Assembly (NCBI GenBank): GCA_004367505.1
Contig: SFCB01000262.1
Location: forward strand, 1-44,780
DNA: 44,780 bases
Reading direction: 5' to 3'
From: Chloroflexi bacterium OHK40
GTDB lineage: Bacteria > Chloroflexota > Chloroflexia > Chloroflexales > Chloroflexaceae
Of this stretch, positions 25,086 to 33,965 are shown piece by piece. A program made the translations under genes and the position numbers. Below the pieces are notes generated by a model. That model saw only the letters and a list, made by a program, of their open reading frames with translations, ran no database searches and had not been told where the DNA came from. How positions within the stretch are numbered: the first letter of the stretch is position 1; each line of letters begins with the position of its first letter.

Positions 25086-25814
25086 ATGCGCTTGTGCTCC
25101 GCCCCGCTTGTGCTCGTGCTTGGGCTGCTTCTCGCCGCCTGCGGCCGGTCTGCCGCCGTGGAGCCCACCGGTGCCACGGCTCCACCGCCGCCAACCCTCG
25201 CCCCGGCTACGCCGCCGCCTACCATCGCCCCGGCCGCAACGGATCGAGTGGCGACGAGCGGTGGCCTCTACACCGGTATCCCCCAGGGCCGCACTCCCGA
25301 GGGCTACGCCTACCTCGGCGCCCCCGACGCGCCGGTGACCCTGGTGATGTACTCCGACTTTCTCTGAACGGCCTGCGCGCTCCACGTGCTGGAGACAGAG
25401 CCACTGATCATCGAGCAGTACATCAGGCCCGGAAAGGTTCGCCTTGTCTACCGCCACCTCCAGCAGCTGGGTGAACGTTCGGAGCTCCTCTCCGAGGCTT
25501 CGGAGTGTGCGGCTGATCAGGGCCGCTTCTGGGAGATGCGGGCTGCCATCTATGGGCGCTACAACCAGCTCTTTACGAACACTGCCGAGCAAGTGGTGGC
25601 TGCCGCTACGGAGGCAGAAGCCAACCCTGAGGCCCTCCAGGCCTGCCTCGACGCCGCCACCCACGAGGCTGCCGTGCGCGCCGACTATGAGGCCGCAACC
25701 GCCGAGGGCGTGCGCTCCCGCCCGGTCTTCCGCATCGGCGAGCGCACTATCATTGGTGGCCAGCCCTTCGCGGTCTTCCAGGGTTTCCTCGACGAGGCCC
25801 TCGGCAACTCCTAG
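25086..25814 (+). CDS. DsbA-like thioredoxin-fold lipoprotein, candidate selenoprotein (UxxC)
   Basis: Read through one in-frame UGA, this is a 242-residue exported thiol-disulfide oxidoreductase. A lipoprotein signal ends in LLAAC (Cys19), a Pro/Thr/Ala tether follows (about 27-55), then a DsbA/thioredoxin-4 type domain begins at GAPDAPVTLVMYSDFL. The next codon, UGA at 25365-25367 (position 94), falls on the first Cys of the expected CxxC; the second is Cys97 (U-T-A-C). The same frame then runs 148 codons with family features: ALHVLETEPLIIEQYI, SECAADQGRFWEMRAAIY and a cis-Pro loop SRPVFRIG. A candidate SECIS hairpin follows the UGA. The ATG at 25086 has GGGGAGGG upstream. Alternatives are a nonsense mutation or a base-call error at one position. 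Selenocysteine would lower the redox potential and speed the reaction. No sel genes are in the window. Confidence 0.82.
25370..25402 (+). promoter_or_regulatory. Candidate bacterial SECIS element
   Basis: Immediately after the UGA the RNA can form a lower stem GGCCUG/CAG(A)GCC with one bulged A, an asymmetric internal loop (CGCG opposite A), and an upper 5 bp stem CUCCA/UGGAG closing a five-base loop CGUGC. The loop begins 18 bases after the UGA and has G as its second base; known bacterial SECIS elements place a small apical loop with an early G about 16-37 bases downstream. The fold was made by hand, without energy calculation. Confidence 0.55.
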
Positions 25815-25961: not shown

Positions 25962-26642
25962 ATGATCTCACGTCGCAGCCTCGCTCTGCCGCTCTACCTG
26001 ATCGCCGCCTGCGGCACCCTGATCATCCTGCTGATGGTCGGCGCGCTACCAGCTCCAACCCTCATCGCCCAGGTGTCGGTCTGCCCCGACCCGGCATACC
26101 CCAACCTCAGCTACGACAACTGCAAGCGCACACAGCAGGCCGGCACTAGCAGCCCGGCACCAACCAGTACGAGCGGCAGTTCCAGCGGCAACCAGCCCCC
26201 GCCCGTCGTCAATACGGCAACGCCTACGGCCACCCGCACCGTGACCGCCACGACCGCGACCCAGGCCCCCTCCGCGACGCTGGCGGCCAGCGCCACTCCC
26301 ACCGCCACGCGGGACCCGGCGTCCATCCCGCCGACGCCGACATCCGGGAGCTTGCTGCCAGCAGACGTCGAGACACTGGCCTGTGTGCCCGGCGAGACAC
26401 TCACTCTCGTGGGCGAGGCGCGGCCAGGCACGGCACTGCTCGCCTACTTTGACGACCGGCCCGTGGGTGGGGGCTTCGCCCGGACCGATGGACGCTTCAG
26501 GATCGAGCTCCTGATCGGCCCCGAACGCCCCGGTCAGTACCTCGTAGAGGTACGCGAACGCGGCAGCAGTGAGCTCGCCCTGCAACTGGGCTGCGCGGTA
26601 CCGGCCTTCACTCCTACGCCAACACCATTCATCGTGCCCTGA
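25962..26642 (+). CDS. Secreted or anchored protein with Ser/Thr/Pro linker and small beta domain
   Basis: A 226-residue protein without a recognised family. It has an N-terminal membrane segment (about 8-37), a short region with two Cys (CPDPAYPNLSYDNC), a roughly 80-residue Ser/Thr/Pro/Ala linker, and a C-terminal domain of about 85 residues (ETLTLVGEARPGTALLAYFD...GRFRIELLI...GQYLVEVRE) that reads like an immunoglobulin-like or carboxypeptidase-regulatory beta sandwich. The end returns to a TPTPTP stretch. It is likely exposed outside the cell. The two Cys pairs could be substrates of the neighbouring oxidoreductase, which is speculation. Confidence 0.7.
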   Translation: MISRRSLALPLYLIAACGTLIILLMVGALPAPTLIAQVSVCPDPAYPNLSYDNCKRTQQAGTSSPAPTSTSGSSSGNQPPPVVNTATPTATRTVTATTATQAPSATLAASATPTATRDPASIPPTPTSGSLLPADVETLACVPGETLTLVGEARPGTALLAYFDDRPVGGGFARTDGRFRIELLIGPERPGQYLVEVRERGSSELALQLGCAVPAFTPTPTPFIVP

Positions 26643-33836: not shown

Positions 33837-33849
33837 ACGGTGGCGACTG

Positions 33850-33946
33850 GCGCTTCCCTACGCTGGCATAACCCAGGTCAGGTTCCACGGGTCAGCGGCA
33901 TCGGTGGGGCCGCAATCTCAGCCGGGCTCTCCCGGCACCCCGAGCA
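33850..33946 (-). ncRNA. TPP riboswitch (thi box)
   Basis: The minus strand carries all thi-box landmarks in order: GGGGTGCC, GGCTGAGA (CTGAGA at 33916-33921), GACCCGTGGAACCTGACCTGG, TTATGCCAGCGTAGGGAAG. This aptamer binds thiamine pyrophosphate and normally switches off the downstream genes when thiamine is plentiful. It precedes thiB by about 95 bases. Confidence 0.97.
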
Positions 33947-33965
33947 GAATGCAGTTGTGAAATCT

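Follow-up and report, generated by a model that had tools for sequence, protein, structure and literature searches.

DsbA-like and DsbG-like selenoproteins with a UxxC motif were described earlier, both in the Sargasso Sea set and in bacteria, and were assigned to COG2761 (DsbA-like) or COG1651 (DsbG-like) (PMC1088965, PMC1794560); with the lipoprotein considered here they share, by description only, a thioredoxin fold, the UxxC motif and a predicted function in disulfide exchange. The NCBIfam equivalog family NF041057 ("Rcas_1661 family thioredoxin-like (seleno)lipoprotein") likewise comprises UxxC lipoproteins, has Chloroflexales members in both the selenocysteine (Sec) and the Cys form, and is listed in Table 1 of a 2026 review as a "DsbG-like protein", a high-confidence prediction of a UxxC selenoprotein (PMC13188914). 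A literature search for Rcas_1661 returned no paper. Among structurally characterized proteins, Corynebacterium diphtheriae TsdA/DsbA (7unn, 4pwp) and Bacillus subtilis BdbD (3eu3) display the same fold, with 28 to 30% and 22% identity, respectively, in structural alignment, but they carry Cys at the first position of CxxC, where the protein of Chloroflexi bacterium OHK40 is predicted to carry Sec.

The gene under study is located in a window of 44,780 nucleotides, this being the whole stretch of OHK40 DNA that was analyzed. Its product matches NF041057 over residues 9 to 237 with 237.8 bits (E 1.3e-70), above the curated cut-off of 190 bits, and in view of this match and of the listing of the family in PMC13188914 it adds another member to an already known selenoprotein family, as one individual protein that does not differ in kind from the others. 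Novelty is the sole point on which the earlier, sequence-only reading of this DNA is corrected, the family having already been curated (NF041057) and reviewed (PMC13188914). Based on the comparative evidence detailed below, we propose that the gene almost certainly encodes a Sec-containing, membrane-anchored, extracytoplasmic thiol-disulfide oxidoreductase with a DsbA/BdbD fold, the insertion of Sec itself being a prediction.

Reading frame, fold and active site

The open reading frame (Table 1) begins with an ATG at position 25086, which is preceded by a GGGGAGGG stretch, and closes with a TAG at 25812-25814, being interrupted by a single in-frame TGA at codon 94. When this codon is read through, the product of 242 amino acids combines a lipobox with a linker of low complexity and a Thioredoxin_4/DSBA domain. 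The Pfam Thioredoxin_4 profile was matched on both sides of the TGA (4.2e-24, residues 75 to 237), as was DSBA by the read-through protein (2.2e-6), which bears out the initial claim that one UGA splits an otherwise intact thioredoxin-fold lipoprotein. The G+C content of the three codon positions 3′ of the TGA (0.72/0.47/0.80) is coding-like. A scan of the window for other TGAs that lie in frame and are flanked on either side by coding signal yielded three weak candidates only, a result which is no proof of the absence of others, since the thresholds applied miss even the TGA at codon 94 because of the G+C-rich second codon positions of the Pro-rich linker.

Residue 94, in the context SDF-L-U-T-A-C, is position 1 of the CxxC motif in the active site, precisely where the sequence-only reading had placed it, at the N-terminal active-site Cys (U94-T-A-C97). 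Among the positions that are invariant across 15 aligned relatives are position 94 (U or C), C97, the Cys pair C141/C187 and P213; family features, including the cis-Pro loop, consequently persist past the UGA, as had been noted, and the search for decay 3′ of the stop revealed none, the protein remaining conserved in the aligned relatives. An AlphaFold2 model reached a mean pLDDT of 87.9, exceeding 95 across the greater part of the domain, and the first matches from a Foldseek search of the PDB included C. diphtheriae TsdA/DsbA and B. subtilis BdbD. Together with the Pfam matches and the invariant residues, these outputs identify the thioredoxin fold, inserted helical domain, CxxC/UxxC motif and cis-Pro that characterize DsbA/BdbD-type proteins. 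The N terminus is predicted to form a lipoprotein signal whose LAAC lipobox ends at C19. The probable role of the protein is disulfide exchange outside the cytoplasm from a membrane anchor, the direction of which (oxidase, isomerase or reductase) is not readable from sequence.

Table 1. Features of the selenolipoprotein locus and of the OHK40 SelD gene (window positions unless a contig is named)
Feature	Position	Strand	Basis or remark
Selenoprotein gene, DsbA-like (Thioredoxin_4) lipoprotein, NF041057 family	25086..25814	+	242 aa, Sec at residue 94 (predicted), TAG stop
Lipobox L-A-A-C (residues 16-19, predicted lipidated Cys19), after hydrophobic signal helix	25131..25142	+	Sequence; helix 6-17 in model
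In-frame UGA, Sec reading (U94 of U-T-A-C), CxxC position 1	25365..25367	+	Sequence and relatives
Resolving Cys97 of UxxC, invariant	25374..25376	+	Alignment of relatives
Predicted bacterial SECIS hairpin, stem CUCCA/UGGAG, loop CGUGC (G25386-U25387)	25380..25394	+	Conservation, covariation; 17 nt after UGA
Pro213 codon, cis-Pro loop (RPVF), invariant	25722..25724	+	Alignment of relatives
Exported/anchored protein, Pro-Thr-rich linker, C-terminal domain with two invariant Cys	25962..26642	+	Relatives' loci, alignment
In-frame TGA of SelD, CAGUASK site	L017 1531-1533, contig C152 (OHK40)	n/a	Profile match and translation

Sec machinery and the distribution of the TGA codon

A search of the OHK40 genome (6.9 Mb in 301 contigs, with a completeness of 100 and a contamination of 3.5) for the Sec machinery, which had been suggested as a check, recovered all four components. 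The tRNA-Sec scored 70 bits against an Rfam cut-off of 47 and was called as tRNA-SeC with anticodon TCA by ARAGORN, while SelA, SelB and SelD scored 457, 313 and 372 bits, respectively. The SelD gene itself contains an in-frame TGA at its CAGUASK site, where SelD proteins of the Sec type usually carry Sec, and its product is probably a second selenoprotein, so that OHK40 would harbor at least two probable selenoprotein genes.

Across a set of 60 relatives and OHK40 itself, codon 94 of the family gene is TGA in 24 genomes and TGC or TGT in 14, with nothing else at this position. This comparison, likewise proposed beforehand, places an in-frame UGA where homologues have Cys, the pattern expected of a bacterial selenoprotein, and the recurrence of TGA at the identical codon in 23 further genomes of the order is far beyond chance. 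tRNA-Sec and/or SelB exceeded the threshold in 23 of the 24 TGA genomes versus 7 of the 14 Cys genomes (Fisher p 0.0017, the genomes not being independent). Both components were present in 20 of the 24 TGA genomes and one of them in three more, while the remaining genome (G058) carries a full-length SelA together with a fragment of SelB situated at the end of a contig. Neither was detected in the other seven Cys genomes, and both are present in six Cys-bearing genomes too. The named relatives belong to the Chloroflexota, mostly to the Chloroflexales (Candidatus Chloroploca, Oscillochloris, Chloroflexus and Roseiflexus); the TGA form was found in assemblies of Candidatus Chloroploca and Oscillochloris from a second collection, and the Cys form at the best-matching Chloroflexus and Roseiflexus loci.

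G029 and G033, two Cys genomes from a single genus-level group, also hold a TGA paralogue of the same subfamily with its hairpin (L064 and L061). In G027 (L023 / L078), a close relative that shares its genus-level group with four TGA genomes, TGC stands above an unchanged SECIS hairpin, and the genome retains SelA, SelB and tRNA-Sec, suggesting a probable recent change from Sec to Cys; since TGC occurs there together with an intact hairpin, Sec is not indispensable. Through its Sec and Cys forms, among them those of one genus-level group that has both TGA and TGC over an intact SECIS, the family provides a natural series with which the contribution of Sec to disulfide exchange outside the cytoplasm could be examined.

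Sister paralogues with the motif U-P-F/Y-C (L062, L063, L065, L066, L068 and L069) share the TGA codon at this position, and their hairpin, with GU in the loop, sits 4 nt further downstream. Four of these (L062, L063, L065 and L068) score 150 to 169 bits against NF041057, below the cut-off of 190, and may therefore be missed by annotation. More distant DsbA-like genes of Chloroflexota (L127-L129, L131, L132, L140, L145, L150, L152 and L153), several of them from Anaerolineae, bear TGA at the same CxxC position within a Q/K-U-P-F/Y-C motif; any SECIS of these genes would be placed differently.

The predicted SECIS hairpin and alternative readings of the TGA

Counted from the UGA, bases 16 to 30 read CUCCA-CGUGC-UGGAG, a putative hairpin whose spacing, loop and stem conform to the bSECIS model quoted in PMC13188914. 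All 28 TGA genes, a count which includes paralogues of the same subfamily, possess a perfect 5-bp stem (5/5 pairs) with GU in the loop, formed by four stem sequences (CUCCA/UGGAG, UUCCA/UGGAA, CGCUA/UAGCG and CGUCA/UGACG). Under a synonymous-codon null in which the protein was kept (2000 trials), perfect stems averaged 8.6 with a maximum of 16, and none of the 2000 trials reached 28. In the Cys genes, the stem is intact in 1 of 14 and decayed in 13, which is not above the synonymous null. Over 25 distinct rows, four of the five stem pairs change on both sides and no pair is broken, with a covariation score of 0.576 versus 0.239 for shuffled alignments (0/500 shuffles reach it); slid structures scored no higher than 0.19. 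Folding of the 48 nt starting at the UGA gave a stem of 5 bp with the 5-nt loop CGUGC at 17 nt (-12.5 kcal/mol). A single-sequence fold with three extra upstream bases favored another minimum-energy hairpin, no better than shuffles (z -0.63), and the SECIS assignment, therefore, rests on conservation and not on energy.

These data bear directly on other explanations of the TGA. A nonsense mutation, or a sequencing or assembly error, in an ordinary Cys-type DsbA-like gene would need one base only, as TGC is the codon of the near relative G027; however, the same codon is TGA in 24 genomes from separate assemblies and from several genera and families, the frame is conserved 3′ of it and the SECIS covaries, making this explanation very unlikely. 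The presence of a GTG-started open reading frame (25386-25814) could be taken to indicate a real stop, with a short lipoprotein fragment and a restart at GTG 25386 giving separate or regulated products, or else general read-through with another amino acid. Such a scheme is highly improbable, given that the downstream half is devoid of any CxxC motif, that the Cys orthologues are single uninterrupted genes, that the codon alternates only with Cys (14/14 non-TGA family genes) and that the genome encodes the full Sec machinery.

Genome-wide reassignment of UGA, for example to Trp or Gly, would also accommodate the in-frame TGA of SelD, but both in-frame TGAs found are at classical Sec positions, and TGA closes 14 of the 27 long ORFs in the window, which is incompatible with a global reassignment; the probability of this reading is close to negligible, in agreement with the original argument that UGA is an ordinary stop here. 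The Sec reading of the UGA is, in contrast, upheld by the Sec machinery, the alternation of TGA and Cys at the codon in homologues, the lack of decay and the covarying SECIS, which together support the production of an envelope-anchored Sec oxidoreductase by Chloroflexales. The earlier suggestion of a membrane-anchored, extracytoplasmic Sec oxidoreductase is likewise consistent with the predicted lipobox, the DsbA/BdbD fold and the U94/C97 pair. Reading by the standard code cuts such genes at the UGA.

In the mechanism envisaged for the Sec reading, which is strongly supported by the comparative data, the hairpin 17 nt after UGA 94 would recruit SelB with Sec-tRNA-Sec, whereupon the UGA would be read as Sec; in the relatives that have neither tRNA-Sec nor SelB, this codon encodes Cys. 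The protein would then be exported and, judging from the lipobox, lipidated at Cys19, and its fold suggests that Sec94 and Cys97 swap disulfides with exported client proteins, Sec at the nucleophile position being expected to speed exchange or reduction. A plausible client or partner, proposed speculatively, is the product of the gene just downstream, an exported protein in which a pair of Cys residues is invariant.

The downstream neighbor and the surrounding locus

A homologue of this neighboring gene (25962-26642) is located on the same strand downstream of the (seleno)lipoprotein gene, be it of the Sec or the Cys form, in most of the Chloroflexales loci examined. A Pfam search of its product gave no match, and the C-terminal domain of the family (21 sequences) contains two invariant Cys residues and a G-G-G-like motif, mostly R-P-V-G-G-G. 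The assignment of the protein as partner or client of the selenolipoprotein is speculative. It is conceivable, if doubtful, that the two genes constitute a dedicated Chloroflexales system in which the Sec oxidoreductase serves a single, specific partner in the envelope; if so, it would represent a substrate-dedicated extracytoplasmic selenoenzyme system, of which no description was found. Within the flanks examined, the genes located upstream here, encoding SulP and GlpX, do not accompany the selenolipoprotein gene at other Chloroflexales loci. Elsewhere in the window, a TPP riboswitch was identified at positions 33838-33952 on the minus strand (69.7 bits).
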